48,890 nucleotides of DNA, from NCBI GenBank assembly GCA_021163155.1, contig JAGGXI010000097.1, forward strand, positions 1 to 48,890. Reading direction: 5' to 3'. Shown piece after piece: positions 24 to 38,755 of this stretch; within the stretch, counting starts at the first letter, position 1, and the number at the start of each line of letters is the position of its first letter. A program made the translations under genes and the position numbers. This stretch comes from Candidatus Aerophobota bacterium (GTDB taxonomy: Bacteria > Aerophobota > Aerophobia > Aerophobales > JAGGXI01). A model generated the notes under the pieces. The model did no database searches. It saw nothing but the letters and a program-made list of their open reading frames with translations, and had not been told where the DNA came from.

Positions 24-2057
24 TCACGTTTCACGTTTTTTATCGTATAGTTCTTTAGCCCTTTTTGCAATATGCTCAGCAGTTAGACCAAATACTTTCA
101 TTAAATCCCATGGTGCTCCAGATTCACCAAATCTATCCTCAATTCCAACCATATCCATCAACAACGGCGCATTGTATCTTTTGCCCTTTGCTATTACTCC
201 TGCTACAATATTTCCAAAACCACCAACCTGATGTTCTTCGGCTGTTATTATAATTCCTGTTTCCTCCGCTGCCTTTACAATTGCTTCCCTATCAATTGGC
301 TTAACTGTATGCACATTTAATATTCTTGTTTCAACTCCATACTCTTCTTTTAAAATATAAGCTGCCCTCATTGCCTCTGTAACCATAGGTCCACAGGCAA
401 TTATGCTTAAATCTTCATCTTCTGAGGTATAACCGGTGGAAAGCTTTATTTCAAATGCTTCCATAAAATCTTCCCTTTCGCTTCTATACCTTATTACATT
501 TGCTAAACCAAACTTATAGGGAGTATCATCGCTGGTTATTACAGGAGTTGCTTCCCTTGCGTATCTAACTACGCAAGGGCCATTAATAGAGGCTATCGCT
601 TGTGTTGCTTTTTCTGTCTCAACTGAATCACAGGGAACAGCCATATGTATATTAGGCAGATAGCATATGTTAGTAATTTCCTCCAATGCCTGATGGGTAG
701 CCCCATCTTGTCCAACTGATATACCACCATGAGCATCGGCAACTTTTACATTAAAATTATTATAACATACAGTGGTTCTTAATTGGTCCCAATTCCTACC
801 GGTTATAAAGACACCATAAGAACCAATAAATGGGATTTTTTTCTCCTTAGCTAAACCAGAGGCTACCAAAGTCATATTAGCCTCAGCTATACCCATACTA
901 AAAAATCTATTTTTCCTCTCGGGATGATTGAGGTAGAATTTGCTCATTCTTATTGAACTTGTAATATCGGCCCCTAAGGCAACAACTTTTTTATCATCAC
1001 CTAATTTTTCTATAGCTCTGCCAAAACCATTTCTAGTAGCATCCATTTTAACCTTCATCTTATCAGTTGAATTCCACCAATAATTTTTGCTAAACTTAAG
1101 CATAAGAATCTCTATTTTTTTATCAACCTCTCTTTGGTAATCATCAGCAATTTTTAGCAACTTATCTACTTTCCCTCTGGTGAACTTAGGGTCTTTTATA
1201 TCTTCCAAAGCCTTATCCAATGATTCTTTTCCTGACCTTCCATCTTTTGGAGCTATACCATGATAGCCAACTACATTCTCAGCATAGGAGACGCCTTTTC
1301 CTTTAGTTGTTTTAGCAATTATTACTGTTGGTTTTCCTTTGACTTTCTCAGCATTATCTAAAGCAGCCAAAATCTCCTTCATGTTATGGCCGTCAATCTC
1401 AATAGTGTTCCATCCAAAAGCTCTCCATTTATCAATAATAAATTCCAATCTCATAATTTTTTCTGTAGGACCATCAATTTGCAATCCATTCCTATCAACA
1501 ATAGATATAAGATTATCTAATTTATAATGAGCAGCACACATTATACTTTCCCAGATAGAACCCTCATCAAGCTCTCCATCTCCATTAATACAATAAACTC
1601 TGTAATTTTTTTCCTCTAATTTAGCATTAAGTGCACAGCCTACCGCTACACCTAAACCCTGCCCTAAGGATCCAGCAGAAAGCTCAACTCCTGGTAGTCT
1701 TAATCTATTAGGGTGACCTTCAAAACCAGACCACAATTTTCTTAGCTTTACTACCTCTTCTACCGGAAAATAACCTGCCTCACCCAAAGCTACATAAAGG
1801 GCAGGAGCTTTATGACCCGTAGACCAAAAAACTCTATCTCTATCTTCCCACTCAGGATTTTTTGGGTCATGCCTTATCTTTTTAAGATACAGGGCTGCAG
1901 TAATATCCATAATTGATAAAATCCCACCTGTATGCCCTGAAGAAGCTGCAGTAAGGGCAATCATACTATAGGCCCTCATTTCCCTTGCCTTTTTCACCAA
2001 TTCCTCAATTGTATAATCTTTTTTTACTTTCCCTGTTTTAGAATCTATAATTGGCAT
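24..2057 (-). CDS. tkt: Transketolase, full-length single chain
   Basis: Thiamine-diphosphate enzyme of the non-oxidative pentose phosphate pathway, moving two-carbon ketol units between sugar phosphates in the cytosol. The 677 residues match the usual length of a one-piece transketolase. The ThDP motif runs from GDG (159-161) to Asn190, preceded by STGHKAPALY and LSAGSLGQGL. The pyrimidine-binding half contains FFSMGIAEANM and HGGISVGQDGATHQ, and the C-terminal domain ends near 670. The ATG has an AAGGAG site a few bases upstream. It is the last recognised gene of the glycine-riboswitch operon, 31 bp after the GlyA-GcvT fusion. Its last codons lie in a GTGAAACGTGAGAAG-like low-complexity stretch, so the extreme C-terminus may be repeat-derived. 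Family call is secure; physiological role in this operon is inference. Confidence 0.95.
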   Translation of the reverse strand: MPIIDSKTGKVKKDYTIEELVKKAREMRAYSMIALTAASSGHTGGILSIMDITAALYLKKIRHDPKNPEWEDRDRVFWSTGHKAPALYVALGEAGYFPVEEVVKLRKLWSGFEGHPNRLRLPGVELSAGSLGQGLGVAVGCALNAKLEEKNYRVYCINGDGELDEGSIWESIMCAAHYKLDNLISIVDRNGLQIDGPTEKIMRLEFIIDKWRAFGWNTIEIDGHNMKEILAALDNAEKVKGKPTVIIAKTTKGKGVSYAENVVGYHGIAPKDGRSGKESLDKALEDIKDPKFTRGKVDKLLKIADDYQREVDKKIEILMLKFSKNYWWNSTDKMKVKMDATRNGFGRAIEKLGDDKKVVALGADITSSIRMSKFYLNHPERKNRFFSMGIAEANMTLVASGLAKEKKIPFIGSYGVFITGRNWDQLRTTVCYNNFNVKVADAHGGISVGQDGATHQALEEITNICYLPNIHMAVPCDSVETEKATQAIASINGPCVVRYAREATPVITSDDTPYKFGLANVIRYRSEREDFMEAFEIKLSTGYTSEDEDLSIIACGPMVTEAMRAAYILKEEYGVETRILNVHTVKPIDREAIVKAAEETGIIITAEEHQVGGFGNIVAGVIAKGKRYNAPLLMDMVGIEDRFGESGAPWDLMKVFGLTAEHIAKRAKELYDKKRET

Positions 2058-2088: not shown

Positions 2089-5000
2089 TTATTGAAAACG
2101 GCTCAAAATCGTACCTTCCTCGTGAAGAAGCACCTTATTCCCTAGAGATAACTTATCTTTAGAAGGTTCTGAAGTCGCTTTTCTTCCCCTGGAAAGAATA
2201 AATATTCCAATTTTTGTTCCTTCCTTAGTGAAATTTTTATCAACAAAAGCCAGCCCAAGCTGAATTCCTTCTGCTAAAGCACAACTGGTAACTCTTCCTA
2301 TATATTGGCCTTTTTCATTTACTACAGGATCTCCCGATCTTACCATCCTGATACCCCTGGACACCATCTTAAAACGGATAATCTCCATTTTTCTTTGGAC
2401 TATACTTTCCAGAAGAGGTTTTCTCCCGATAAAATAGGGTTTATGAAACTTAACAAATGCCCCATGACCTTCCTCGATAGGATTAATACAGTATTTTCCG
2501 GCTAGCTCATGCCCATATAAAGGAAGCCCAGCTTCTATCCTGGTTGAATCCCTGGCTCCCAAAGCAGTAGGTTTAATTCCAAATTCTTTGCCTTCCTCTA
2601 AGAGTAAATCCCAAATAAGGCGAACTTTATCTGGATGGAGGTAAAGCTCATAACCAATATCTTCTCCCGTGTAACCCGTTCGAGAAATTAGCATTTTTAC
2701 CCCACCTAATTCATCCTCTATAAACTCATTTTTTTTAATCCTGGTTAATTTTTTTTGTAGTTCTCTATTCTTAGCTATCTTTTGAAGTATAGCCAAAGAA
2801 GTAGGGCCCTGAAGAGCTATATCAACCCTTTGGTCTTTTCCGGACGATGCATCCTTTAAGTTTCTAATAATGGCTTCTCCTTCAATCTCTTTTTCAGGAA
2901 AGTCTTTATCTATAAGAAATCTTTTAGAGTTAACTGCATTTAGCCACATCCAGACTTTTTCTTCATTTGCAGCATTGCAAACCATCATATATCTATTTAA
3001 ACCTCGATAATAAATCATAACATCATCTAAAACACTTCCATTCGGGTCAAGAAGGTAGGTATATTGAGATTCCCCTGGCTTTATCCACCTCACATAGTTT
3101 GTGCCAACTGTATCCAGGAAACTGGCAGCATACTCACCGCTAATCTCTATTACTCCCATGTGGCCTACATCAAAAAGCCCGGCTGCTTCCCTTACTGCTC
3201 TATGCTCCTCATCAATACTGGTATAACAAATTGGCATCATCCAACCGGCAAAAGGAACAAGCCTCTTGGTTAATTTTAAATGCTCCTCATATAAAGGAGT
3301 TTTTCTTATCTTGCTCTCTTTTTCTTTGTATTGAAACTCCTCTTTTTTTACTTTTGAGACTCCCATAGCTTTGCTGATTATTTTCTGTCCAATAAAATAA
3401 CGCTTTGGCAGGTGAAAATAAGAGGGAAACATCTTTTGCAAAAAAGACCCATCAACTAGAGATTCAGCATCTTTATAGGAAGGCAATTTCCTCTCTGAAC
3501 GCAAATGGTCCCTGACCAAAAGGCCGGCGGGTTTAATTCCAAAATCTTTCCCTTTTTCTAAGAATAAATCCCAGAGGTGAGAAACATCATTCAGATGAAT
3601 ATAAAACTTAAACCCTGAGATATTCTCAGCATAATCTACTCGAGACACAATTCCTCGAATTCCTTTAATTTCCCCTTCCAAGAAGCAAGACTTCTTTAAA
3701 CTGCTTAAAGAAGACTCTATTCTGCAAAGAAATTTAAAAGAGTTTGGTCCATACAAAGCTATTCCTGTCTTGCGCGGCTTTTCCTCTGCCGTTTCCTTTA
3801 AGTCCTCCACTACCACCGGTCCTTCAATTTTGGCGAATATGTCATCCTCGTCAAAACTAATGTATCCGTCGGAGAGTTCCCTTAACCATAATTTTACCTT
3901 TTCACTATTTTGAGAATGAGTTTCCATTAGATAATGGTCTATATTCCTCTCATCTAATCCTAAATAAAAAATTAAAACATCGTCGATAAGCTTCCCATCC
4001 TTATTCAAAAGGAAAGAACGGAGGAGGTGACCTGGTTTAAGCTTCCCTATGTCATTAGTAGATGTCTCTTGTAAAAATGGTTTTGCCCTTTCTCCACTTA
4101 TCTTTAAAAGCCCCATATCACCAATATCAAAAAGCGCAATCCCCTCTTTAGCTGCTTTAAGCTCTTCTTCAAAATTCTTATAGTGAAGGGGCATCCTCCA
4201 TCTCTCATCCTGGGAAAATTTTGCTCCCAGCTTTTGATGCTTAGTAAATAGAGGAGTCTGCTTTATTGATGGCCTTACTGGGGGAGTATAATGAGGATAA
4301 CCAAACTTAAGCTCTTTTTTGTCCGGAGAAACCTCATCTTTTGCTTTCTGAACCAGTTGGTTCACCTCGTCCCTTGCTTTTTCCAATACCTTTAAATCTA
4401 TTTTCCCTCTGGATAAATCTCCGGTTAGCCCTATATAACTAAAAGGCTGAATATTGATTAATACCTGGTAAATAACCTCAGCTAACTTTTCCATATCTTC
4501 TTTACCTAATCCCCTTTGAGTAACCCAGGGAGTTCCCAGACGAATACCACTGGCATCGGCAGCTGTCTCATCACCGGGAATGGTGTTCTTATTAACCACC
4601 AGGCCGCAAAGATCTAAGATGCGAGCAGCTATTTCACCTTTTAGAGGTAAACCAGTTTTGGTTTTAATAGCATTTAAGTCAATCACTAAAAGATGGGTAT
4701 TTGTCCCTCCATAAGCTAACTTTAAACCTCTTTTCTCTAGAGAAGAGGCCAATACCTTAGCATTTTTTACAATTTTTTCTTGAAGTTTTTTAAACTTCTC
4801 TGTTTGGGCAATTTTAAATGTTACAGCCATAGCTGCGATCTTGTTAATATGAGGGCCGCCTTGCTCTCCGGGGAAAACAGCAGCATCTATCTTCTTGGCT
4901 TTTTCCTCATCGGTAGTTAAGATAACCGCACCGCGTGGGCCGCAGAGAGTCTTGTGGGTAGTGAAAGTGATAACGTCAGCATACCCGATAGGGTTAGGGT

Positions 5001-5784
5001 ATACTCCAGCAACCACCATTCCTGCTGGATGAGCAATATCAGCTACAAGTATTGCTCCTACCTCATCGGCAATTTCTCTAAATTTTTGCCAATCAGGTGC
5101 CCAGGGATAAGAAGTATAACCGGCGATTATCATCTTTGGTTTGTGTTTAATAGCCAATCTTTTGATAGCCTCGTAATTCAATTTCCCTGTTAATTTATCA
5201 ACTTCGTAAGAAACAATATGATAGTATCTACCGGATCGGCTAAATTCACTGCCATGAGTTAAATGTCCTCCATGAGGAAGAGCCATACCCATAACTGTAT
5301 CACCAATCTCAACAAAAGCATCATATATAGCACCATTAGCTGCTGCTCCAGAAAGGGGTTGGACATTTACGAATATCTGGTCGGCACTAACCTTTATGGG
5401 AGCATCTGGATTATTATCTGTAGCAAAACACTCAGCTGCTCGTCTCTGGGCTAAAGCCTCCACAAGATTAACGTAGTCGGCTCCTTTATAAAATCGTCTA
5501 TCAGAATAACGTCTATAGTAAGTAAGCTGATGTTTAAAATCCTGTAATAATTTTTCCTCATCGCTCTTCATCATTAAAGGGGGATACCCCTCAGCATACA
5601 GGTTGGTGAAAACTGAGCCCAGAACTTTACGAATAGCTTCAGGACATATACTTTCCGAAGGAATAAGGATAAGTTTTTTTGCCTGTCTATCCTCTTCAAA
5701 TTTAATTATAAGGTCTATATCGAGGTCTATCTTAGAAAGATCCTCCTCAATAAGAAAATTTGAATAATCTTGGCTCTCTTTCAT
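2089..5784 (-). CDS. GlyA-GcvT-GcvT fusion: serine hydroxymethyltransferase joined to two aminomethyltransferase modules
   Basis: A 1231-residue single ORF. Residues 1 to about 485 are serine hydroxymethyltransferase: LIPSES, YAEGYP, then an insertion of roughly 25 residues before RFYKGADYVN, and the PLP lysine K278 in TTHKTLCGPRG. Residues about 505-815 are a degenerate GcvT fold: the FAGW and EH signatures are lost, the catalytic-loop IDD pair is kept at 601-602, and the C-terminal barrel is missing. Residues about 826-1231 are a complete GcvT: FAGWMMPICY, FDVGHMG, LDD at 920-921, SRTGYTGED, ARDSTRIEAGLPLYGHE and a C-terminal barrel with GRVTS. Known chemistry: SHMT interconverts serine and glycine plus methylene-THF, and GcvT makes methylene-THF from the aminomethyl-lipoyl GcvH intermediate. 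RBS AAAGGAG precedes the ATG. It lies 30 bp after the aminotransferase under the glycine riboswitch. GcvH and GcvP are not in the window. Substrate channelling is inference. Confidence 0.92.
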   Translation of the reverse strand: MKESQDYSNFLIEEDLSKIDLDIDLIIKFEEDRQAKKLILIPSESICPEAIRKVLGSVFTNLYAEGYPPLMMKSDEEKLLQDFKHQLTYYRRYSDRRFYKGADYVNLVEALAQRRAAECFATDNNPDAPIKVSADQIFVNVQPLSGAAANGAIYDAFVEIGDTVMGMALPHGGHLTHGSEFSRSGRYYHIVSYEVDKLTGKLNYEAIKRLAIKHKPKMIIAGYTSYPWAPDWQKFREIADEVGAILVADIAHPAGMVVAGVYPNPIGYADVITFTTHKTLCGPRGAVILTTDEEKAKKIDAAVFPGEQGGPHINKIAAMAVTFKIAQTEKFKKLQEKIVKNAKVLASSLEKRGLKLAYGGTNTHLLVIDLNAIKTKTGLPLKGEIAARILDLCGLVVNKNTIPGDETAADASGIRLGTPWVTQRGLGKEDMEKLAEVIYQVLINIQPFSYIGLTGDLSRGKIDLKVLEKARDEVNQLVQKAKDEVSPDKKELKFGYPHYTPPVRPSIKQTPLFTKHQKLGAKFSQDERWRMPLHYKNFEEELKAAKEGIALFDIGDMGLLKISGERAKPFLQETSTNDIGKLKPGHLLRSFLLNKDGKLIDDVLIFYLGLDERNIDHYLMETHSQNSEKVKLWLRELSDGYISFDEDDIFAKIEGPVVVEDLKETAEEKPRKTGIALYGPNSFKFLCRIESSLSSLKKSCFLEGEIKGIRGIVSRVDYAENISGFKFYIHLNDVSHLWDLFLEKGKDFGIKPAGLLVRDHLRSERKLPSYKDAESLVDGSFLQKMFPSYFHLPKRYFIGQKIISKAMGVSKVKKEEFQYKEKESKIRKTPLYEEHLKLTKRLVPFAGWMMPICYTSIDEEHRAVREAAGLFDVGHMGVIEISGEYAASFLDTVGTNYVRWIKPGESQYTYLLDPNGSVLDDVMIYYRGLNRYMMVCNAANEEKVWMWLNAVNSKRFLIDKDFPEKEIEGEAIIRNLKDASSGKDQRVDIALQGPTSLAILQKIAKNRELQKKLTRIKKNEFIEDELGGVKMLISRTGYTGEDIGYELYLHPDKVRLIWDLLLEEGKEFGIKPTALGARDSTRIEAGLPLYGHELAGKYCINPIEEGHGAFVKFHKPYFIGRKPLLESIVQRKMEIIRFKMVSRGIRMVRSGDPVVNEKGQYIGRVTSCALAEGIQLGLAFVDKNFTKEGTKIGIFILSRGRKATSEPSKDKLSLGNKVLLHEEGTILSRFQ

Positions 5785-5814: not shown

Positions 5815-7002
5815 TCAAACTTCAACAGCTTTTTTAATTCTTCTTAGTCCTTCCAGTATATTTTCTCTGGAGGTTGCATAGGATAATCTGATATACTCTT
5901 CCCTCTCTCCTTTATTTCTTTGGCCAAAGCAGCTTCTGGCTAATACTGCTACATTCCCTTTATACAGTAAGTATTGTTGAAGTGCTTCAGAATCTGACAA
6001 ATTAAGATTTCGGCAAGCCTCAGTTACATTTGGATATACATAAAAAGCTCCTTTAGGTTTTAAACATTTAATTCCTTTGATATCATTTAATCCTTCATAA
6101 ATAAGGTCTCGTCTTTTCTTAAGCTCTTCTACCATAGCTAAGGAATCATCTTGTGGACCTTCCAGAGCTTCTATTCCCGCATATTGGGTAAACGTTGCCG
6201 TGCAGGCATCGACGTTTGTTTCTATTCTGGCAATATGAGCAGCCAGTTCCTTTTTCATTACTCCAAATCCCAATCGCCATCCAGTCATAGCATAAGTTTT
6301 AGAAAATCCATCAAGCAGAATTGTCCTCTCTTCCATTCCAGGAATGGAAACAATACTTTGGAATTTTCCATCATAAGTTATATTATAGTAAATTTCATCG
6401 GAGATTACCCAAATATCATTTTGGATAGCTATCTCAGCAACAGCTTTCAAATCGTTATAACTTAAGATACTTCCGGTAGGATTGTGAGGAGAGTTAATGA
6501 TAATCATTTTTGTTCTTGGTGTTATCTTCTTTTGCAAATCCTCCACATCAAAACTAAAATTTTTCTCTTCTAAAAGAGGAAGGGGAACAGGTTTTCCATG
6601 CAAAAAATTTGTAACTGACTCATAAATTGGATATCCCGGGTTAGGATATATTAGCTCATCTCCTTCGTTAATACAGGAAAGAATACTATTAAAAAATACT
6701 GGTTTTACTCCGGGCGTGACTACTACCTCATCAGGGTCAACCTCAATACCCCTTGTTTTAGAGACATAGCGAGCAATCGACTCTCTTAAAGGAAGAATTC
6801 CGGCTGAAGGACTATAATGGGTATAACCATCCTTGATTGCCTTTATTGCTGCATCTTTAATATTTTGCGGGGTATCAAAATCAGGTTCTCCGATAGCAAG
6901 ACTTATAATATCTCGACCCTCTGTTTTAAGCTTATTTACCTGCACCAAAACCTCAAAACCACCTTCGGTTCCTAACCTTCTTATTCTTTTTGCTATTTGC
7001 AT
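5815..7002 (-). CDS. Class I/II PLP aminotransferase (aspartate-aminotransferase-like, subgroup I-gamma)
   Basis: PLP-dependent aminotransferase of fold type I, 395 residues, the normal family length. Visible landmarks are SLAIGEPDFDTP near the N-terminus, THYSPSAG, SPHNPTG with Asn174, SDEIYY with Asp202, the Schiff-base lysine K235 in GFSKTYAMTGWRLG, and a late Arg in IRLSYATS that should bind the substrate carboxylate. The ATG has a GAGAGG site upstream. It is the first gene after the tandem glycine riboswitch and its terminator, so it is the gene most directly controlled by glycine. That suggests a substrate linked to glycine, serine, alanine or glyoxylate rather than plain aspartate, but substrate specificity cannot be read from sequence here. 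Followed at 30 bp by the GlyA-GcvT fusion. Confidence 0.9.
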   Translation of the reverse strand: MQIAKRIRRLGTEGGFEVLVQVNKLKTEGRDIISLAIGEPDFDTPQNIKDAAIKAIKDGYTHYSPSAGILPLRESIARYVSKTRGIEVDPDEVVVTPGVKPVFFNSILSCINEGDELIYPNPGYPIYESVTNFLHGKPVPLPLLEEKNFSFDVEDLQKKITPRTKMIIINSPHNPTGSILSYNDLKAVAEIAIQNDIWVISDEIYYNITYDGKFQSIVSIPGMEERTILLDGFSKTYAMTGWRLGFGVMKKELAAHIARIETNVDACTATFTQYAGIEALEGPQDDSLAMVEELKKRRDLIYEGLNDIKGIKCLKPKGAFYVYPNVTEACRNLNLSDSEALQQYLLYKGNVAVLARSCFGQRNKGEREEYIRLSYATSRENILEGLRRIKKAVEV

Positions 7003-7043: not shown

Positions 7044-7076
7044 AAAAAAGGCATAACGAATTTAAGCTGTTATGCC
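7044..7076 (-). terminator. Intrinsic terminator serving as riboswitch expression platform
   Basis: On the minus strand an 8-bp perfect stem, GGCATAAC (7076-7069) with GTTATGCC (7057-7050), encloses an 11-nt loop and is followed at once by six T (7049-7044). It sits between the second glycine aptamer and the aminotransferase start codon. The 5' arm directly abuts the closing strand of aptamer 2 (CAGAGG), so aptamer P1 and terminator formation can plausibly compete, as in known glycine ON switches. The terminator is read directly; the direction of control is inference. Confidence 0.88.
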
Positions 7077-7266
7077 CTCTGTCCTTTTACCTGAGAGATT
7101 TTACCTTACCTGTAAAGGTAATAATGCCCCTTCGGTTCTTCCCCTAAAATTTTAGGAAAATTTCTCCAGAGAGTTGCTCAATTAAGGTCCTTTTACCTGA
7201 GAGTTTCGCTTACTACTTAAAGCTTGCCCCTTCGGTGCTGGATATCCCAGTCTCTCCCTTAATTAC
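7077..7266 (-). ncRNA. Tandem glycine riboswitch (gcvT-type, two aptamers)
   Basis: Read on the minus strand there are two consecutive copies of the glycine aptamer core. Each has ACCGAAGGGGCA followed, after a variable stem, by CTCTCAGGTAAAAGGAC. The first aptamer (about 7266-7183) is closed by a P1 pairing TTAAGG with CCTTAA. The second (about 7180-7077) ends in GGACAGAG. The arrangement promoter, aptamer 1, aptamer 2, terminator, gene is that of classical cooperative or tandem glycine switches controlling glycine cleavage genes. Downstream are the aminotransferase, the GlyA-GcvT-GcvT fusion and transketolase. Because the downstream genes consume glycine, an ON response to glycine is expected (inference). 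Confidence 0.96.
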
Positions 7267-7297
7267 CTCTATGATATATTTTCAATTCGGTATTTAA

Positions 7298-7325
7298 TTT
7301 ATACCATACTCAAAAATTTTGTCAA
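7298..7325 (-). promoter_or_regulatory. Sigma-70-type promoter of the glycine operon
   Basis: On the minus strand TTGACA (7325-7320), a 16-bp spacer and TATAAA (7303-7298). The predicted transcript would begin near 7291, about 25 nt before the first glycine aptamer. Position and quality make it the likely promoter for aminotransferase, GlyA-GcvT-GcvT and transketolase. Confidence 0.75.
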
Positions 7326-8846: not shown

Positions 8847-8920
8847 GTCCTGGTAGCTCAATTGGATAGAGCAACAGCCTTCTAAGCTGTGGGTTGGGGG
8901 TTCAAGTCCCCCTCAGGACT
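8847..8920 (+). tRNA. tRNA-Arg (anticodon TCT)
   Basis: Cloverleaf folds by eye: acceptor GTCCTGG with TCAGGAC, D-arm GCTCAATTGGATAGAGC, anticodon stem ACAGC/GCTGT around loop CTTCTAA, and T-arm with GGTTCAAGTCC. Anticodon TCT reads AGA/AGG, the Arg codons favoured by the AT-rich genes here. CCA is not encoded. First of six tandem tRNA genes. Confidence 0.95.
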
Positions 8921-8932
8921 CTAATTCAGTAT

Positions 8933-9008
8933 GCGGGGGTAGCTCAGTTGGTAGAGCATTGGCCTTCCAAGCCAATTGTCGCGGGTCCGAATCCCGTTCC
9001 CCGCTCCA
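8933..9008 (+). tRNA. tRNA-Gly (anticodon TCC)
   Basis: Acceptor GCGGGGG pairs with TCCCCGC; anticodon stem TTGGC/GCCAA encloses CTTCCAA, anticodon TCC. The T-arm carries GGGTCCGAATCCC. A genomic CCA follows the discriminator base at 9006-9008. Confidence 0.95.
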
Positions 9009-9012
9009 TAAT

Positions 9013-9090
9013 GGTGAGCGTAGCTCAACTGGTTAGAGCTCTGGACTGTGGATCCAGTGGTTGGGGGTTCAAGTCCCCTCGCTCACCCCA
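9013..9090 (+). tRNA. tRNA-His (anticodon GTG)
   Basis: Anticodon stem CTGGA/TCCAG encloses CTGTGGA, anticodon GTG. The acceptor GTGAGCG pairs with CGCTCAC and is preceded by the extra G at position -1 (9013) facing C73, the identity element of bacterial tRNA-His. CCA is encoded at 9088-9090. Confidence 0.95.
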
Positions 9091-9098
9091 TATATTTT

Positions 9099-9172
9099 GG
9101 GCCGTTAGCTCAATCAGGCAGAGCAACGGACTCTTAATCCGTAGGTTACAGGTTCGATTCCTGTACGGCCCA
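9099..9172 (+). tRNA. tRNA-Lys (anticodon CTT)
   Basis: Acceptor GGGCCGT pairs with ACGGCCC; anticodon stem ACGGA/TCCGT encloses CTCTTAA, anticodon CTT, reading AAG. T-arm GGTTCGATTCC is canonical. CCA is not encoded. A tRNA-Lys with TTT, for the more common AAA codon, must lie elsewhere. Confidence 0.94.
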
Positions 9173-9177
9173 TCAAA

Positions 9178-9249
9178 GCGGGAATAGCTCAGTGGTAGAG
9201 CATCACCTTGCCAAGGTGAGGGTCGCGGGTCCGAATCCCGTTTCCCGCT
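9178..9249 (+). tRNA. tRNA-Gly (anticodon GCC)
   Basis: Acceptor GCGGGAA pairs with TTCCCGC; anticodon stem TCACC/GGTGA encloses TTGCCAA, anticodon GCC. The second glycine isoacceptor of the cluster, close in sequence to the TCC one. Confidence 0.95.
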
Positions 9250-9257
9250 CTATAAAA

Positions 9258-9340
9258 GCGAGGGTGGCGGAATTGGTAGACGCGCTAGACTTAGGATCTA
9301 GTGAGATAATCTCATGCGGGTTCAAGTCCCGCCTCTCGCA
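9258..9340 (+). tRNA. tRNA-Leu (anticodon TAG)
   Basis: 83 nt with a long variable arm (GAGATAATCTC), as expected for a class II tRNA. Acceptor GCGAGGG pairs with CTCTCGC; anticodon stem CTAGA/TCTAG encloses CTTAGGA, anticodon TAG. CCA is not encoded. Last tRNA, 33 bp before tig. Confidence 0.95.
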
Positions 9341-11309: not shown

Positions 11310-13076
11310 TTGGCTGAGCAAGGAAAGATAATAAAAATTTCTGGTCCTTTAGTAGTTGCTAAACATGTTCCTCATGCTCGAATGTATGATGTAGTGAGAG
11401 TAGGAGAAAAGAGGCTGATTGGGGAAATTTTAGAAATAAAGGGAGAGAGGGCATCTATTCAGGTTTACGAAGATACAAGCGGTTTAAAACCTGAAGAGCC
11501 TGTAGAGTCTACTTATCAACCATTATCCGTAGAATTAGCCCCTGGAATAATGGGGAATATATATGATGGAACACAGCGTCCTTTAGATTTGATTAAATCA
11601 AAAACGGGAGATTTTATAGCTCGTGGGGTAGAGATAGAAGCAGTTGATAGAAAAAAAGAATGGGAGTTTAAGCCGCGGCTAAAAATAGGGGAAGAAGTGG
11701 TTCCTGGAGATATATTAGGAGTGGTCCAGGAAACAGAAATAGTTGAACATCGCCTTCTCGTTCCTCCTGGGGTAAAAGGGAGAATAGAAAAAATATACTC
11801 GGGGAAAGCAAAGGTAGAAGATACAATTGCAGTAATAAAAACAGCTCAGGAGGGGAACAAAGAAATATCAATGCTACAAAAATGGCCGGTAAGAAAGATG
11901 AGGCCGTACAAAAAACAGCTGGATCCTGAAGTGCCTCTTATTACAGGGCAAAGAGTTATTGATACGCTTTTCCCTATAGCTAAAGGAGGCACAGCTTGTA
12001 TTCCTGGGCCATTTGGAAGTGGCAAAACTGTAGTCCAACACCAGATATCTAAATGGGCAGATGCAGAAATTATTGTTTTCGTAGGTTGTGGAGAGAGAGG
12101 TAATGAAATGACCGATGTCTTACAGGAGTTCCCTAAACTAAAAGATCCTAAAACAGGTAAGTCCCTGATGCAAAGAACTATTCTTATTGCTAATACATCT
12201 AATATGCCTGTGGCTGCCCGAGAAGCCTCTATTTATACAGGGATAACTTTGGCTGAGTATTATCGGGACATGGGTTATAATGTTGCTTTAATGGCTGATT
12301 CTACTTCCCGCTGGGCTGAAGCCTTAAGAGAGATGTCAGGAAGGCTTGAAGAGATGCCAGGAGAAGAAGGATACCCAGCTTATCTTCCATCAAGATTAGC
12401 AGAGTTTTATGAAAGAGCGGGAAGGATTATCTGTTTAGGAAAAGACGGAAGAGAAGCGAGTTTAAGCGCTATTGGGGCAGTATCACCTCCGGGGGGAGAC
12501 CTTTCTGAGCCGGTAACTCAGGCTACCCTGCGGGTAGTTAGAGTATTCTGGGCTTTGGTATCTGAACTTGCCTATCAGCGGCACTTTCCAGCCATTCACT
12601 GGTTAAGAAGCTATTCCCTTTATGTAGATAATCTTAAGAAGTATTTTTCCAGAAGAATAGCCCCTGATTGGATGAAACTGCGAGATAAAGCCATATCTCT
12701 TTTACAAAAAGAGGACGAATTAAAGGAAACGGTAAGGCTTGTAGGATTAGATGCTTTATCTGATCAAGATAGAATAGCTATGGAGACCTCTCGTTCCATA
12801 AGAGAAGATTTCTTGCAACAGTTTGCCTTTCACGAAATAGATACCTATACTCCTATAAAGAAACAGTATTTAATGTTAAAATTAATTTTAAGTTATTACA
12901 ATTTATCTTGCGAAGCTTTAAATAACGGAGCTCGTTTAGAGGATCTCGTATCTCTTGCAGCAAGAGAAGATATAGCAAAAGCAAAGTATATCCCCAATGA
13001 AAAGATAGAAGATGAGATTAAAAAAATAAGCCAAAAGTTAAAAGAAGAGATTTCTGGAAAAATCAGAAATCTCTGA
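11310..13076 (+). CDS. atpA: V/A-type ATPase catalytic subunit A
   Basis: Catalytic nucleotide-binding subunit of the bacterial V/A-type rotary ATPase, which couples ATP hydrolysis or synthesis to H+ or Na+ transport. 588 residues with the Walker A motif GPFGSGKT at 233-240, [12 protein letters not shown], the bulge region with [12 protein letters not shown], and [13 protein letters not shown]. Initiation is at TTG, with AAGGAGA (inside the end of clpP) about 7 nt upstream; no in-frame ATG is suitably placed. The last codons and the stop codon (KIRNL-stop) lie inside dispersed hairpin repeat B, so the native C-terminus may have been replaced by repeat sequence. Followed by atpB after an 85-bp gap holding the rest of the repeat. 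The coupling ion cannot be told because subunit K is not here. Confidence 0.96.
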
Positions 13077-13111
13077 TTACACAGATTAGAGGACTCTGAG
13101 GGTTTTTAAGA
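13045..13111 (+). repeat. Dispersed hairpin repeat, copy B, overlapping the atpA stop codon
   Basis: Inverted repeat GAGATTTCTG (from 13047) and AGAAATCTC (to 13073), followed by TGATTACACAGATTAGAGG, ACTCTGAGG and TTTTT. The TGA at 13074-13076 is the atpA stop. Compared with copies C and D it lacks the middle block with the ACAGATAAAAGTCGAG-type sequence. The hairpin followed by a T-rich end could attenuate transcription between atpA and atpB (inference). Confidence 0.8.
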
Positions 13112-13161
13112 GGCCTCAAAGGAGAGGTTGATAAATTGGAAAAAAGGACGGAGGAGAGAGT

Positions 13162-14538
13162 ATGAGAACCAAGGAATATACCTCAGTAAAGGAATTAACA
13201 GGGCCTCTTATGTTAATAGATAAAGTTTCCGATGTTGCCTACGAGGAATTAGTAGAAATAAAACTTTCCAATGGAGAAAAAAGAAGGGGCAGAGTATTAG
13301 AGGTAACCTCTGATACAGCACTGGTGCAGTTATTTGAAAGAGCGACAGATTTAGGAATTAAAGGAGCTCAAATAAAATTTTTAGGGAAGGGTATACAGTT
13401 AGGAGTATCCGAGGATATGTTAGGAAGAGTATTTGATGGATGGGGAAGACCCCGAGATGGAGGAGCAGAGATAATTCCAGAAAAAAGAGTGGATATAGGG
13501 GGGATACCGATAAACCCTGAAGCTCGCGCTTATCCTGTAGAATTTATTCAAACAGGAATCTCATCTATTGATGGATTAAATACCCTCTCCAGAGGCCAGA
13601 AATTGCCCATCTTTTCCGGAGCGGGCCTCCCTCATGTGCAGGTTGCCGCTCAAATAGCCAGGCAGGCTAAAGTTCTAAAAAAGGAAGAGGAGTTCGCTGT
13701 GGTTTTCGCAGCCATGGGAACAACCTTTGAAGAAGCAAACTATTTCATCTCAGACTTCGAAAAAAGCGGAGCCATAGAAAAAGTTGTTCTTTTTCTTAAT
13801 CTTGCTGATGACCCTGTGATTGAGAGAATCGCCACTCCCAGACTGGCTTTAACATGCGCTGAATATTTAGCTTTTGAAAAAGGAATGCATATTCTTGTTA
13901 TTTTAATTGATATGACCAATTATGCAGAGGCTCTTCGGGAAATTTCTGCTGCTCGCCGAGAAGTTCCTGGAAGAAGAGGCTATCCTGGCTACCTTTATAC
14001 CGACTTAGCTACCATTTATGAGCGTGCTGGCAGAATTGAGGGAAGGAAAGGTTCTATTACCTTAATTCCTATTCTTACGATGCCTGATGATGATAAAACA
14101 CATCCTATTCCTGATCTTACCGGATATATTACTGAAGGACAAATAATTCTTCAAAGAAGTCTTCATCAAAAAGGAATTTATCCTCCTATTAATGTTCTCC
14201 CTTCTTTATCTCGATTAATGGACGAGGGGGTAGGAGAAGGAAAGACCCGGGAAGACCATAGAGAGCTTTCTAATCAGCTCTACGCCGCCTATGCTCAAGG
14301 AATAGAAATTAGAGAATTAGCTCTGGTTATGGGGGAAGCTACTCTTAGTGAAATGGATAAAAAATACCTTTTGTTTGCCGATAAATTTGAAGAAGAATTT
14401 GTCTCTCAAGGGGGAAACGAAAATAGAGAAATAGAGGAAACTCTAAATTTAGGGTGGGAGCTTCTTAAAATAATTCCTACTACAGAGCTAAAACGAGTAA
14501 GAGACGAATATATTAAAAAATACGGAAAAAGAAGATAA
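13162..14538 (+). CDS. atpB: V/A-type ATPase regulatory subunit B
   Basis: Non-catalytic nucleotide-binding subunit alternating with subunit A in the A3B3 head. 458 residues, normal length. It carries the family's degenerate P-loop SGAGLPHVQ in place of a Walker A motif, plus [34 protein letters not shown] and [12 protein letters not shown]. The ATG has GGAGGAGAG just upstream. It lies between atpA and atpD. A TTG-initiated reading upstream is out of frame, so the ATG is the chosen start. Confidence 0.96.
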
Positions 14539-14553
14539 AGAGGAAAATTAAAA

Positions 14554-15174
14554 ATGCCCGCGGTAGCGCAAATCAATCCTACAAGAATGGAGCTCTTAAA
14601 ACAGAAACAGAGATTAGGAGCGGCTAAAAGAGCTCATGATTTATTAGAAGACAAAAGAGATAAATTAATAAAGGAATTTCTCCCTTTAATTAAAGAAGTA
14701 CGCACGCTAAGGGAAAAGGTAAGAAAGAATTTAAACAGAATCTATGCTGATTTTCAGATAGCAAAAATGATAAATTCGGAAAGAGAAATAGAAGAATCTC
14801 TTATGTGGCCCACAGTTAAAATAGGCATCGAGATTGAGAGCTATTCTTTACTAAGGACTCCTCGATTTAAAATGGTAAGAGAAGGAGATATTCTCTGTTA
14901 TGGTTTTTATGAAAGTAACTGGAAACTAGACTCTGCTTTAAATTCTTTCTTCGAACTTTTCCCCTCATTAATTCAATTAGCTCAAAAAGAGGGAGAATTA
15001 AAACAACTAGCAAAAGAGATAGAACGAACAAGGCGGAGAGTGAATGCCTTAGAGTATATTTTTATTCCTCAAATAAAAGAGGCAGTAAAATATATAACTA
15101 TGAAATTAGAAGAAAGGGAGAGAGCTCATATTATAAACGTGATGAAGATAAAGGAGATGCTGGAGAAAAGCTAG
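14554..15174 (+). CDS. atpD: V/A-type ATPase subunit D (central stalk)
   Basis: Central rotor shaft subunit, equivalent in position to F-type gamma. 206 residues, largely two long helices. The N-terminal NPTRMELLKQKQRLGAAKRAHDLLEDKRD is the family signature, and the C-terminal RRRVNALEYIFIPQIKEAVKYI is the matching return helix. It starts 16 bp after atpB and ends the A-B-D block. Its 3' end overlaps by 44 bp, tail to tail, the end of the LpxB-related gene on the other strand. The stalk subunits E, C and F and proteolipid K that often precede A-B-D are absent upstream, where clpP lies instead. Confidence 0.95.
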   Translation: MPAVAQINPTRMELLKQKQRLGAAKRAHDLLEDKRDKLIKEFLPLIKEVRTLREKVRKNLNRIYADFQIAKMINSEREIEESLMWPTVKIGIEIESYSLLRTPRFKMVREGDILCYGFYESNWKLDSALNSFFELFPSLIQLAQKEGELKQLAKEIERTRRRVNALEYIFIPQIKEAVKYITMKLEERERAHIINVMKIKEMLEKS

Positions 15175-33168: not shown

Positions 33169-34464
33169 TCAATAATCCGCCACATAATTAAGAATCTCCC
33201 AAAAGTTAGGAAAGGAAGTGGCGATGCATTCTGTATCCGATATTTTGACTCCTTCCTCGGAAGCCAAGCCGGCTACTGCCAAAGTCATAGCCATTCGGTG
33301 GTCTCCGTAGCTTCTGCACTCTCCTCCTTTTAATCCCTTCCCCCCTTCAATTATCATTCCATCGTCTTTTTCCTCAATATTCGCTCCCATCTTTCTCAAT
33401 TCCTTAACTATTGCTTTAATTCTATCTGTCTCCTTAACCCGAAGCTCCTGAGCATCTTTAATTATAGTTTCTCCTTGGGCAAAACAGCTAACCACAGCTA
33501 ATATAGGTATCTCATCAATTAAACGGGGGATCATCGCTCCCTTTATAGTAATTCCTTTTAACTCATTCTCTCCTCTCACCTCTAAGTCTCCCACTTCTTC
33601 TTCGCATACCCTCTTTAAATTAATAATTCTTATATCTGCTCCCATTTTAGTGAGAGTATCAATAAATCCTCTGCGTGTAGGGTTTAAACCAACATTTAGA
33701 ACCTTAATCTTTGAATCTTTTAAAATAGTTGCTCCACCTATAAAAAAGGAAGCTGCCGAAATATCTCCCGGGATTATTATGTCTCTTGCAGAAAATTGAG
33801 ATCTTCCTTTTAGACTTACTGTCAAATGGTTTACCTTAATCTTAGCTCCTAAAAACTTAAGCATTCTTTCAGTATGATCACGGGAAAGATAAGGTTCTCT
33901 GATAATAGTTTTTCCCTCACTATTTAATCCTGCTAAAAGTAAACATGACTTAATTTGAGCAGAAGGAATAGGGGAGAAATAATCGATTCCTTTTAGCTTT
34001 TTTCCTACAATAGTTAAAGGTGGAAATTGACCCTTTTCTCTGCCAAAAATAGAAGACCCCATTCTCCTTAAGGGTTCAGTTACTCTTTTCATAGGTCTTT
34101 CTCGTAGATATTTGTCCCCGGAAAGAACGGAATAAAAGTTTTGTCCCGCTATTAATCCCGACAATAACCTTATTGTTGTTCCCGAATTTCCACAATTAAG
34201 AACATCCACCGGTTCCTTTAACCCACAATGTCCTTTCCCCCAAATAATTACCTCATCTTCTCTTTCTTCAATTTCTACTCCCATTAGCTTCAAACTATTT
34301 AAAGTAGATAAGCAATCCTTTCCTTTTTGCAATCCTTTAATAACTGATTTTCCATAGGCAATAGAAGAGAGAATCAAGGCTCGATGAGATATTGATTTAT
34401 CCCCGGGAAGAGTAATCTCTCCTTTTAAACACTTTGCTGGCTTCACAAAAATAGAGTTATTCAA
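33169..34464 (-). CDS. aroA: 3-phosphoshikimate 1-carboxyvinyltransferase (EPSP synthase)
   Basis: Sixth step of the shikimate pathway, joining phosphoenolpyruvate to shikimate-3-phosphate. 431 residues, normal length. Signatures: LPGDKSISHRALI, NCGNSGTTIRLLSGL, YLRERPMKRV, the DEIPILAV catalytic Asp region, ELRVKETDRI and YGDHRMAM. The start is TTG; AAAGGTG, overlapping the end of the DAHP synthase gene, provides the Shine-Dalgarno, and only 3 bp separate the genes. Last biosynthetic gene of the aro cluster. Confidence 0.96.
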   Translation of the reverse strand: MNNSIFVKPAKCLKGEITLPGDKSISHRALILSSIAYGKSVIKGLQKGKDCLSTLNSLKLMGVEIEEREDEVIIWGKGHCGLKEPVDVLNCGNSGTTIRLLSGLIAGQNFYSVLSGDKYLRERPMKRVTEPLRRMGSSIFGREKGQFPPLTIVGKKLKGIDYFSPIPSAQIKSCLLLAGLNSEGKTIIREPYLSRDHTERMLKFLGAKIKVNHLTVSLKGRSQFSARDIIIPGDISAASFFIGGATILKDSKIKVLNVGLNPTRRGFIDTLTKMGADIRIINLKRVCEEEVGDLEVRGENELKGITIKGAMIPRLIDEIPILAVVSCFAQGETIIKDAQELRVKETDRIKAIVKELRKMGANIEEKDDGMIIEGGKGLKGGECRSYGDHRMAMTLAVAGLASEEGVKISDTECIATSFPNFWEILNYVADY

Positions 34465-34467
34465 TTT

Positions 34468-35481
34468 TTACACCTTTCTTCCTACAGCCTCAGCAACAGG
34501 TTTTATCTCTTTCATCAGTCTCTGAAAATTTAAAGGAAGTATTGACTGGAAACCATCGGATAATGCCTCTTCCGGCCTGGGATGAACCTCAACCATTAAC
34601 CCATCCGCTCCCGCAGCTATAGCTGCTCTGGACAGAGGAAGTATAAGCTCTCTTCTACCTGTGCCATGACTTGGGTCAACAAAAACGGGAAGATGACTTA
34701 AAATTTTAATTTGAGAAACAGCAGAAATATCCAGAGTAAAACGGGTAGAATCCTCAAATGTTCTTATACCTCTCTCACAAAGTATAACTCTGGAATTTCC
34801 TTCAGAAAGAATATATTCTGCAGACATTAAAAGTTCTTTCACAGTAGAGGCCATTCCTCGCTTAAGCAACACAGGTTTCTCAGTTTTTCCCACCTCTTTT
34901 AAAAGATTAAAATTCTGCATATTCCGTGCTCCAATCTGAATAATATCCGCATATTCAGATACCAATTCTATCTGTCTTACATCCATTACTTCTGTAATTA
35001 CAGGAAGATGAGTTAATTTACCTACCTCGGCTAAATATTTTAGTCCTTTCTTGCCTAAACCCTGGAAAGAGTAAGGAGAAGTACGCGGTTTAAAAGCACC
35101 TCCCCGCAATATCTTACCTCCGGCCTTTTTTATTTCTGAAGCTATCTCTAAAAGTATCTCTCTATTTTCTATAGAACAAGGGCCACCAATAACTGCAATC
35201 TCCTTATCTCCTATCTTTACATTTTTTACCTTGATAATAGTACTTTTGCTTTTAAATTCTCTGCTGACTAATTTATAGGGTTTGGAGATAGGAGTAATAG
35301 ATTCCACAACAAACATTGGCTCAAAAATCTCTCGAGTTAAAATAGCATTCTCACCAATTACACCAACAATTGTTCTCTCTTTTCCCTCTGAAAGATGGGG
35401 AGTGAACCCTAAATTTTTAATCTTTTGAACAACTTCTTCGATTCCTTTTTTTGTAGTACCAGGTTTTAAAGTAATAATCAT
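34468..35481 (-). CDS. aroF: 3-deoxy-7-phosphoheptulonate (DAHP) synthase, type I-beta with N-terminal regulatory domain
   Basis: Condenses phosphoenolpyruvate and erythrose-4-phosphate, the first shikimate-pathway step. 338 residues from the ATG at 35481, which overlaps the pheA stop as ATGA; a reading extending to 35532 would overlap pheA much further and is rejected. Residues about 1-70 are the ferredoxin-like domain that in related enzymes mediates feedback inhibition by aromatic amino acids. The barrel shows GGPCSIE, LRGGAFKPRTSPYSFQGLG, QIGARNMQNF, LLKRG and DPSHGTGRR, with EVHPRPEEALSDG near the end. The allosteric effector is not predictable from this reading. Confidence 0.95.
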   Translation of the reverse strand: MIITLKPGTTKKGIEEVVQKIKNLGFTPHLSEGKERTIVGVIGENAILTREIFEPMFVVESITPISKPYKLVSREFKSKSTIIKVKNVKIGDKEIAVIGGPCSIENREILLEIASEIKKAGGKILRGGAFKPRTSPYSFQGLGKKGLKYLAEVGKLTHLPVITEVMDVRQIELVSEYADIIQIGARNMQNFNLLKEVGKTEKPVLLKRGMASTVKELLMSAEYILSEGNSRVILCERGIRTFEDSTRFTLDISAVSQIKILSHLPVFVDPSHGTGRRELILPLSRAAIAAGADGLMVEVHPRPEEALSDGFQSILPLNFQRLMKEIKPVAEAVGRKV

Positions 35482-36548
35482 TCTATTCCCTTCTCCCTTG
35501 GATAAGAACCTAAAATTTTTAAGAAAAGGCACTGTTCCTCAAGCTCAGTTAAAGCTTTTTTTACTTTTTCATCATCTTTATGGCCAATAAAATCAACAAA
35601 AAAGACGTACTCCCATGGTTTTTTCTTTGTGGGTCGAGACTCAATCTTAGTTAAATTGAGTTGATGCTTACGGAAGGGAGAAAGCATATCATAAAGGGCT
35701 CCTACTCTATCCTTAATAGAAAAAATAATAGAAGTCTTATCATCCCCACTTCTTTCCGCATAATCCCTTCCTATAACAAAAAAACGGGTATAATTATTTG
35801 CTCTATCTTCAATATGATGAGCTAATATTTTTAGATTATATAAAGAAGCAGCAATATCCGAAGCAATAGCAGCAGAACAAGGCTCCTCATAAACTATTTG
35901 AGCAGCTTTAGCTGTGCTTTCTACTTCAATAAGGTTTGCAGAAGACAGATTATCCTCTAACCATTTATCACATTGAGCCAGAGCTTGGGGATGAGAATAA
36001 ATCTTTTTTATCTTCTCCAATCTTCCTTTTCCTAAAAGGCAATGAGATATCTCCATCATTATCTCCGCATAAATCTTCAAATTTGAATCTAAAAACATAT
36101 CTAAGGTATAGGTCACTATGCCTTCCATAGAATTCTCTATAGGCACAACTCCAAAATCAGCCTGCTTTTTTTCTACTTCACTAAATACTCGGGCAATATT
36201 TTTCTGAGGAACTAAATCTACCTTCTTGCCAAATTTTTCAATTGCTGCTAAATGAGTAAAAGTAGCTGGAGGACCTAAATAAGCAATTTTTAATTTCTTC
36301 TCCAGGGACAAAAAAGTTTTGAAAATAAGACGAACAATTTCTGCCAAATCCTCATTGGGTAGAGGCCCCTTGTTTTCTTTTAATAAACTGTCCAAAATTT
36401 TTTTCTCCCTTGCTGGTGAATAATAACTTTTTCCACTTTCTCTTTTTACTTTAGCAATTTCTAAAACTTTCCTTGCTCGTTCATTTAAGATATCCAGCAA
36501 TTTTAAATTAAGAATATCAATCTCCTGCCGTAATTTTTTTATTCCCAT
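35478..36548 (-). CDS. pheA: Bifunctional chorismate mutase / prephenate dehydratase
   Basis: Converts chorismate via prephenate to phenylpyruvate, the phenylalanine branch. 356 residues in three parts: an AroQ-type chorismate mutase (about 1-85, LRQEIDILNLKLLDILNERARKVLEIAKVKRE), a prephenate dehydratase (about 90-270, AYLGPPATFTHLAA, VVPIENSMEGIV, ANNYTRFFVIGRD with the TRF motif), and an ACT regulatory domain (about 275-356) with ESRP in LTKIESRPTKKKPWEYVFF, the phenylalanine-binding signature. Feedback control by phenylalanine is expected. No tyrA lies in the window. It follows aroQ after a 70-bp gap filled by hairpin repeat D. Confidence 0.95.
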   Translation of the reverse strand: MGIKKLRQEIDILNLKLLDILNERARKVLEIAKVKRESGKSYYSPAREKKILDSLLKENKGPLPNEDLAEIVRLIFKTFLSLEKKLKIAYLGPPATFTHLAAIEKFGKKVDLVPQKNIARVFSEVEKKQADFGVVPIENSMEGIVTYTLDMFLDSNLKIYAEIMMEISHCLLGKGRLEKIKKIYSHPQALAQCDKWLEDNLSSANLIEVESTAKAAQIVYEEPCSAAIASDIAASLYNLKILAHHIEDRANNYTRFFVIGRDYAERSGDDKTSIIFSIKDRVGALYDMLSPFRKHQLNLTKIESRPTKKKPWEYVFFVDFIGHKDDEKVKKALTELEEQCLFLKILGSYPREKGIE

Positions 36549-36570
36549 TTGATCTCCCCTTTCTTTTAAA

Positions 36571-36648
36571 ATCTCCAGAGTCCTCTAATCTGTGTAATTT
36601 GGACTTTTATCTGTGAAATTAGAGATTTCTGATTTTTTTAGAAATCTC
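36571..36648 (-). repeat. Dispersed hairpin repeat, copy D, overlapping the aroQ stop codon
   Basis: On the minus strand GAGATTTCT and AGAAATCTC form the core hairpin (36648-36622), followed by TAATTTCACAGATAAAAGTC, AAATTACACAGATTAGAGG and ACTCTGGAG. It is the fullest copy in the window. The TAA at 36621-36619 is the aroQ stop, at the same place in the repeat as the atpA TGA in copy B. The hairpin sits between aroQ and pheA inside the operon. Confidence 0.82.
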
Positions 36649-37080
36649 TTTTAAAATATCTATGGATGCTCTTAAAGCAAGAAGATAGCTTTGGGGACCA
36701 AAACCAGTTATTTGTCCTACACATACTTCTGCTATTAAAGAATTTCTTCGGAAAGGTTCTCTTCTATAAACATTAGAAAGGTGAACTTCCACCGCAGGAA
36801 TCTCAACTCCTGCTATAGCATCCCTTATAGCAATGCTCGTATGAGTGTAAGCGGCAGCATTAATTATTAATGCATCTGCCCAATCCCTATTCTCTCCAAT
36901 AAAAGAGACAATTTCTCCTTCACTATTTGATTGCTTAATTCTTATCTCACAATTTAGCTCTCTTGCTTCTTCTTCAATCATCTGATTAATTTGATTAAGA
37001 GTGGTTTCTCCATAAATATCTTTCTCTCTTCTCCCAAGCAAATCAAGATTGGGTCCGTGAATTACCAAGATATGTCTCAT
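36619..37080 (-). CDS. aroQ: 3-dehydroquinate dehydratase, type II
   Basis: Third shikimate-pathway step. 153 residues with GPNLDLLGRREKDIYG (catalytic Arg and Tyr region), QSNSEGEIVSFI, INAAAYTHTSIAIRDAI and PAVEVHLSNVYRREPFR. Length and motifs are typical of the dodecameric type II enzyme. The last residues (EISKKIRNL) are encoded by hairpin repeat D, giving the same KIRNL ending as the unrelated atpA product. No strong Shine-Dalgarno is seen before the ATG at 37080. It follows aroB after 105 bp. Confidence 0.94.
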   Translation of the reverse strand: MRHILVIHGPNLDLLGRREKDIYGETTLNQINQMIEEEARELNCEIRIKQSNSEGEIVSFIGENRDWADALIINAAAYTHTSIAIRDAIAGVEIPAVEVHLSNVYRREPFRRNSLIAEVCVGQITGFGPQSYLLALRASIDILKEISKKIRNL

Positions 37081-37160
37081 TTTTAAAATCCTTTTTTATT
37101 CTCATGGCAGTTAAGTTTTTCTGAAAAAAATTTTCTTTGCCTAGAAATTCTCTTCATCGC

Positions 37161-37184
37161 GGGTAGGGGAGGCTTTAGCCTCCC
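37161..37184. repeat. Solitary copy of the MITE internal palindrome module
   Basis: A 24-bp segment, GGGTAG plus GGGAGGCTTTAGCCTCCC, identical to segments inside both MITE-like copies (25804-25827 and 41156-41179), located 1 bp after the aroB stop codon. It can form a 9-bp hairpin in the aro mRNA. No terminal repeats of the element are present here. Confidence 0.7.
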
Positions 37185-37185
37185 T

Positions 37186-38256: not shown

Positions 38257-38755
38257 CTTTTAAAACCCTCAGTATCTTTTCGGCTATCTCTTCAGGAGAT
38301 AAGTTGGATGTTTCTATTTTTAAATCTGCCTTTTCATAATAAGGCTGGCGCATTTTTAAAAGCTCTTCAATTCGTTTTTTTCTATTTTTTTCACCCTTTA
38401 ATAAGGGGCGAGTATTCTTTTTAGATGTCCTCTTTAAAATTGTCCCTGGTTTTGCCCAAAGACAGACAATAAATCCATTGCTTTTCAAGGCGCTTAAATT
38501 CTCTTCTTTTAAAATTGCTCCTCCTCCCGTAGAAATAACGTAATCATCCCATTTAGAAATTTCCTTAATTATTTGGCTCTCTTTTTGACGAAAATACTCC
38601 TCCCCCTTTGTTTCAAATATGCCAAAAATTTTTTTCTTTTCTTTTCTCTCAATCACTTCGTCTATATCTATATAACCAATTTTTAACTTTTTAGCCAATA
38701 TTTTACCTACTACACTTTTACCTGTCCCCATAAAACCGGTGAGCACAATATTCAT
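38237..38755 (-). CDS. aroK: Shikimate kinase
   Basis: ATP-dependent phosphorylation of shikimate, fifth step. 172 residues with P-loop GFMGTGKSVVG (7-17), IDIDEVIERKE (shikimate-binding Asp), FRQKESQIIKE, STGGGAILKEEN and a lid with TRPLLKG. Overlaps aroC by 4 bp (ATGA) upstream and aroB by 20 bp downstream, inside the co-directional aro run. Confidence 0.94.
   Translation of the reverse strand: MNIVLTGFMGTGKSVVGKILAKKLKIGYIDIDEVIERKEKKKIFGIFETKGEEYFRQKESQIIKEISKWDDYVISTGGGAILKEENLSALKSNGFIVCLWAKPGTILKRTSKKNTRPLLKGEKNRKKRIEELLKMRQPYYEKADLKIETSNLSPEEIAEKILRVLKDEYNYY

Follow-up and report, generated by a model that had tools for sequence, protein, structure and literature searches.

Why would a bacterium join serine hydroxymethyltransferase (SHMT, GlyA) and two modules of GcvT, the T-protein of the glycine cleavage system, in one polypeptide? 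The question is raised by a 48,890-nucleotide stretch of DNA (here called the window; GenBank assembly GCA_021163155.1, contig JAGGXI010000097.1), which is part of the 1.83 Mb, 119-contig draft genome of an uncultured deep-sediment bacterium, Candidatus Aerophobota bacterium. The original prediction, made from the sequence alone, had pointed to an SHMT-GcvT-GcvT fusion encoded by one uninterrupted frame of 1231 residues. We propose that the fusion is probably a bifunctional SHMT/T-protein belonging to a glycine-induced glycine cleavage operon, and that its middle module is a non-catalytic tether or docking domain. The fused architecture with a degenerate T duplicate is a variant on known enzyme families, each part being already known. 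No single model in Pfam or NCBIfam covers the whole chain, and the papers that we searched, which cover the literature in part, yielded no description of an SHMT-GcvT fusion.

The fusion gene and its distribution

The gene lies on the minus strand, from an ATG at 5784 down to 2089, and its 1231-residue frame has zero internal stops. Pfam finds SHMT (7.6e-122) at residues 89-438 and in a further piece at the N-terminus. Two stretches match GCV_T, with 3e-111 for the stronger one, at 831-1107, and there is a single GCV_T_C at 1136-1204. The second GCV_T stretch was recovered in a search of the window's genome (C27, the window's contig, 3475-4245; 137.8 bits). Reading frame and Pfam/NCBIfam matches agree on the predicted trimodular chain, and a Foldseek search with a model of the full chain recovered SHMT and GcvT and nothing else.

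Could the chain be an artefact of assembly or binning? The genome is a draft in many contigs, and the gene is close to a contig end. However, independently assembled genomes of two phyla have this frame at full length and among the same neighbours, which rules out such an origin; we give it next to no credence. The full-length chain is found in Candidatus Aerophobetes, in Chloroflexota and in one 'Spirochaetes' metagenome-assembled genome (MAG), the closest named relatives being Candidatus Aerophobetes MAGs. When whole genes and contig-cut pieces are both counted, 12 of 17 Aerophobota species genomes carry the fusion lineage; the other five lack any GcvT match, and their SHMT is a standalone protein. 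In a sample of 400 genomes drawn from the Chloroflexota, the fusion SHMT lineage is present in 77, and 66 have it in one frame of 1041-1426 amino acids (both figures counted from the result table), in some cases on multi-megabase contigs. The SHMT tree places the 'Spirochaetes' locus (L012) within the Chloroflexota, and its contig may be misbinned.

Is the fused state obligatory? In four Chloroflexota genomes (G327, G311, G346 and G168) one gene encodes SHMT and a remnant of the middle module, with a separate GcvT gene immediately after it, and in two others (G056 and G271) the GcvT gene is located elsewhere. The original prediction would have been undone by homologues that always occur as separate proteins; a few in Chloroflexota are indeed split, yet fusion prevails.

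SHMT and the last GcvT module

The SHMT module scores above the curated cut-offs of its family models (PF00464, 407 bits against 27; NF000586, 431 bits against 335). Ten columns do not vary in any of the 37 fusion SHMTs: Y51, E53, Y61, H122, D197, H200, H225, K226, R232 and R357 in the numbering of the Bacillus stearothermophilus enzyme. We take them to have catalytic or cofactor roles, several of which are backed by mutant structures among the Foldseek matches. A loop insert of about 26 residues is present in the fusion SHMTs aligned and absent from the B. stearothermophilus enzyme. The tree puts the fusion SHMTs in a single clade, to which the phylum's standalone SHMTs do not belong. Descent of the module from a PRK13580-type SHMT was weighed and rejected, as the match is below the cut-off (306 bits against 735). 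For 23 of the 25 Chloroflexota carriers searched, the fusion lineage is the sole SHMT above the Pfam cut-off, the exceptions being G020, and G039 with a divergent 145-bit match. Because SHMT is a core enzyme and these 23 genomes show no other above that cut-off, the SHMT module most likely works.

The last module looks complete, as had been predicted: it has both GCV_T and GCV_T_C, and exceeds the NF001567 cut-off (423.5 bits against 300). Seven columns, Y83, D96, Y100, N112, Y188, E195 and R227 in Thermotoga maritima numbering, are invariant in 35/35 last modules, and presumably these form the folate-binding site. We take D96 to be the equivalent of the catalytic aspartate D97 of Escherichia coli, the residue mutated in structure 3a8k, which is among the Foldseek matches. 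A search of the window's genome gave no GCV_T match besides the middle and last modules of the fusion. Judged by their sequences, both end modules should be catalytically active.

The middle module

Where does the middle module come from? It is 34% identical to the last module over 322 amino acids (197 bits), and its best match among T-proteins of known structure is 112 bits, a rough comparison since that figure comes from another search with other scoring. Middle and last modules also have in common an insert of about 25 amino acids that is absent from four canonical T-proteins. We infer that the middle module is an internal GcvT duplicate. Middle modules group together in the tree (100/100), with branches so long that the attachment point of the clade is unsafe; the duplication claim therefore rests on the pairwise similarity and the shared insert. 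The predicted structure is that of a GcvT folate domain (pTM 0.74; TM 0.68-0.69 to 1woo and 1yx2).

As the original prediction had it, the module keeps the IDD pair, in the form LIDD, and has lost the FAGW and EH signatures (it reads SQDERW for VPFAGW and EEEL for EEH) together with the C-terminal barrel, the chain's sole GCV_T_C match being in the last module. The folate-site columns have gone as well. The window's copy has Y83R, Y100F, N112H and E195K. Across 39 middle sequences, Y83 is kept in none, Y100 in one and D96 in 12, as against 35/35 for the last modules; Y188, E195 and R227 are deleted altogether in most. These losses disfavour a module that holds tetrahydrofolate (THF), one of two roles first suggested for it. 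The other, that of a docking domain, has fared better, as it fits the private motif and the purifying selection described below and the retention of the module on SHMT in the split proteins.

Might the module instead be a decaying spacer, left when operon neighbours were fused by loss of a stop codon, the linkage having no benefit beyond co-expression? From about 320 residues it shrinks to 200, 150 and 100, with trimming in at least three independent lineages; it evolves faster than its neighbours in most pairs; and the split form exists and persists. Against such neutrality, the middle module has a dN/dS under 1 in each of 15 pairs (0.08-0.31, usually about twice that of SHMT), so that the module is under purifying selection, and the fused state is retained across two phyla. 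Furthermore, a motif, WLRxLSDGYxxFD, is kept in nearly all 39 middle sequences, at a place where the last module has other residues. Together with a following GPvvV it survives in full modules, in the remnants of about 100 amino acids, and in the split proteins, which have no need of a spacer. We think a neutral fusion rather unlikely, though it deserves some weight. Because the old site is lost, the private motif is kept, and the module stays on SHMT when GcvT is separate, we infer that its role is one of tethering or docking and not of binding folate.

A glycine riboswitch and the operon

What controls the fusion gene? Upstream of the aminotransferase gene that heads the operon lies what appears to be a tandem glycine riboswitch, followed by an intrinsic terminator (Table 1); riboswitch and terminator are also present upstream in the relatives G001 and G003. 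The sequence signature of the second aptamer aligns with the relatives, with an Rfam match in G003 only. The stem of the terminator differs in G001 and G003, with compensating changes. A promoter scan of the region upstream of the riboswitch paired TTGACA with TAAATT, and found no excess over shuffled sequence. Where Aerophobota have a glycine riboswitch, one of the Chloroflexota split loci (G327; L102:4362-4447) has a ZMP/ZTP riboswitch about 100 nt upstream of the gene for SHMT and remnant. Both kinds of switch point to one-carbon and glycine metabolism.

The window's gene order is aminotransferase, fusion and transketolase, followed by the contig end, and G001 has the same three genes. The order in G003 continues with gcvH, gcvPA, gcvPB and a lipoate ligase-like gene. 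For G015 and G016, gcvH adjoins the fusion, and gcvPA and gcvPB follow further down. Another contig of the genome to which the window belongs, C34, starts with gcvH-gcvPA-gcvPB. The reverse strand of the window ends in 11 bases identical to the first 11 of C34; very probably the two contigs are neighbours, which would place these three genes after the transketolase.

The family GDC-P is found in 10/12 Aerophobota fusion carriers versus 0/5 non-carriers. The Chloroflexota figures are 60/60 and 51/60; because so many non-carriers also have GDC-P, the co-occurrence there is weak evidence, and the strong contrast is that in Aerophobota. With the gcv genes alongside in relatives, the glycine riboswitch and this co-occurrence, the predicted tie between the fusion and glycine cleavage is supported.

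Table 1. Features of the fusion gene and its operon (positions in the window)
Feature	Position	Strand	Basis
Whole fusion gene: SHMT, degenerate GcvT, complete GcvT; 1231 aa	2089..5784	-	Open reading frame; Pfam/NCBIfam matches
SHMT module, residues 1-480	4345..5784	-	Pfam SHMT 7.6e-122; catalytic columns intact
About 26 extra residues (approx. 69-95) in the SHMT loop that runs from YAEGYP to RRFYKG	5500..5580	-	Alignment
Middle module, degenerate GcvT folate domain lacking the C-terminal barrel, residues 507-803	3376..4266	-	Identity to last module; predicted fold
WLRELSDGYISFD motif, kept in middle modules and remnants, not in last module	3850..3888	-	Alignment
Last module, complete GcvT, residues 827-1231	2089..3306	-	GCV_T 831-1107; NF001567 above cut-off
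GcvT C-terminal barrel, GCV_T_C, residues 1136-1204	2173..2379	-	Pfam
Class I/II aminotransferase, first gene of operon, 30 nt upstream of fusion	5815..7002	-	Pfam/NCBIfam; same position in G001, G003, G016
Transketolase, 31 nt downstream of fusion	24..2057	-	Pfam/NCBIfam; same position in G001, G003
Glycine riboswitch aptamer 1	7175..7269	-	Rfam RF00504, 71.6 bits (gathering score 32)
Glycine riboswitch aptamer 2 (putative)	7075..7173	-	Read from sequence; no Rfam match here, Rfam match at same place in G003
Intrinsic terminator, GGCAUAAC..GUUAUGCC then U6, riboswitch expression platform	7044..7077	-	Minimum free energy -15.7 kcal/mol, z -4.2
Promoter-like TTGACA - 16 nt - TATAAA, upstream of riboswitch	7298..7325	-	Read from sequence; chance matches common in region

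Further genes of glycine cleavage type were seen during this work. G001 and G017 each have a second, divergent GDC-P match, and in the Chloroflexota sample a genome of about 1.1 Mb (G083) has its GDC-P matches in one 1033-amino-acid frame (contig C15:16709-18877), which suggests a fused GcvP. The genome of the window also encodes a second GcvPA/GcvPB-like pair, divergent and of 466 and 521 amino acids (L094; contig C58, 1000-8000). Its neighbours are a B12-binding corrinoid protein, two short-chain dehydrogenases and an NAD-kinase-like protein; neither GcvH nor GcvT lies beside it. A second GcvH-like protein (L095; contig C43, 10500-16500) lies beside a lipoate ligase and HdrA/B/C-like iron-sulfur proteins (CCG domain, 4Fe-4S), along with fumarase- and malic-enzyme-like genes; this locus, in a presumed anaerobe, resembles the lipoate-binding protein clusters of sHdr systems.

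Elsewhere in the window, six tRNA genes (Arg, Gly, His, Lys, Gly, Leu; 8847-9340), two of them for tRNA-Gly, lie directly upstream of trigger factor and clpP and are divergent from the glycine operon. A shikimate/aromatic amino acid cluster on the minus strand (33169-39915) comprises EPSP synthase, DAHP synthase, chorismate mutase-prephenate dehydratase, DHQ synthase and chorismate synthase. Since the genes for V-type ATPase subunits A, B and D (11310-15174) are about 27 kb from that for subunit I (42370-44334), the V-ATPase genes are split in this genome.

A proposed function

How might the fusion act? Glycine would switch the operon on. GcvP would then decarboxylate glycine and load the aminomethyl group onto GcvH, from which the last module of the fusion would move the one-carbon unit to THF, with ammonia freed. 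The SHMT module would use the resulting methylene-THF and a second glycine to make serine, returning THF. The net reaction would be the conversion of two glycines to serine, CO2 and ammonia. The middle module would be a GcvT duplicate now past folate binding and catalysis, serving as the tether or docking domain between SHMT and GcvT. A quick return of THF would be useful: when THF is lacking, protein T frees formaldehyde, which is toxic, from H-protein loaded with the aminomethyl group (PMC7733448).

Several points weigh against this proposal. The window's genome also has a standalone SHMT, so that the fusion SHMT is not the sole one there. GDC-P was not seen in the Aerophobota carriers G007 and G011, both of which are incomplete genomes. 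The direction of flux, toward cleavage and serine synthesis, is read from the riboswitch, and the enzymes could also run the other way. The evidence for the tether role is that of conservation and position, and a gain from proximity is likewise our supposition. Finally, the structure prediction of the full chain has a pTM of 0.48, because of which the arrangement of the domains cannot be read from the model.

Is methylene-THF passed directly from GcvT to SHMT, with the middle module as part of the path or as a holder of folate in transit? Both flanking active sites are intact and handle the same cofactor, and tight recycling of THF would pay in view of the formaldehyde release noted above. Yet the folate site of the middle module is lost, the full-chain model places the sites relative to each other with no confidence, and split versions exist; we consider direct channelling of this sort unlikely. 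In a somewhat different picture, which we find less improbable and put forward tentatively, the duplicated T-protein has become a non-catalytic SHMT adaptor that docks onto T-protein, whether fused or separate, giving one assembly that channels methylene-THF.

Does the system run mainly in the reductive direction, from CO2, NH3 and methylene-THF to glycine and on to serine, in reductive glycine or Wood-Ljungdahl linked assimilation? The glycine cleavage and SHMT reactions are reversible. Wood-Ljungdahl genes have been reported in Aerophobota MAGs (PMC12766754), and FTHFS is above cut-off in 12/17 Aerophobota genomes. In that search, however, no FTHFS was detected in the window's own genome, and its presence is uncorrelated with the fusion; FTHFS was accordingly dropped as a marker of flux direction. 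In addition, the glycine riboswitch with its terminator suggests expression at high glycine, which fits cleavage. We regard a mainly reductive role as distinctly unlikely, and favor cleavage coupled to serine synthesis by a tethered SHMT/T-protein.

Does methylene-THF pass freely between T-protein and SHMT, or is it channelled? The answer matters for photorespiration and glycine metabolism, and for the engineering of reductive glycine pathways. Enzymes fused in nature, together with split versions that keep the extra domain, offer a comparative system for the study of channelling. The middle modules are also a series that shows how an enzyme domain, once duplicated, can lose its catalytic role and persist as a short conserved piece.

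Comparison with known systems

The fusion SHMT has in common with GlyA (PF00464, NF000586) the fold, the pyridoxal phosphate lysine and all the listed catalytic columns. It differs by the insert of about 26 residues, which is beside the Y51/E53-Y61 loop, by a further insert near residues 123-136, and by its GcvT-derived C-terminal extension. The last module, compared with T-protein (PF01571 plus PF08669, NF001567, TIGR00528), has both domains and the seven folate-site columns, but is covalently behind SHMT, is paired with a degenerate duplicate, and has the extra insert unseen in the four canonical T-proteins. The middle module resembles YgfZ/IBA57 and the dimethylsulfoniopropionate demethylase DmdA in putting a GcvT fold to a use other than aminomethyl transfer. 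It differs from these and other GcvT-fold proteins in having no barrel, and is closer in sequence to the last module and to GcvT structures than to YgfZ/IBA57. At the level of the operon, tandem glycine riboswitches control gcv operons, among them a gcvT-gcvH-glyA operon in Streptomyces (PMC12452182). GcvT and GlyA are under a glycine riboswitch in both cases, putatively tandem here; in Streptomyces they are encoded by separate genes, whereas here they form one chain with a duplicated, degenerate T module.

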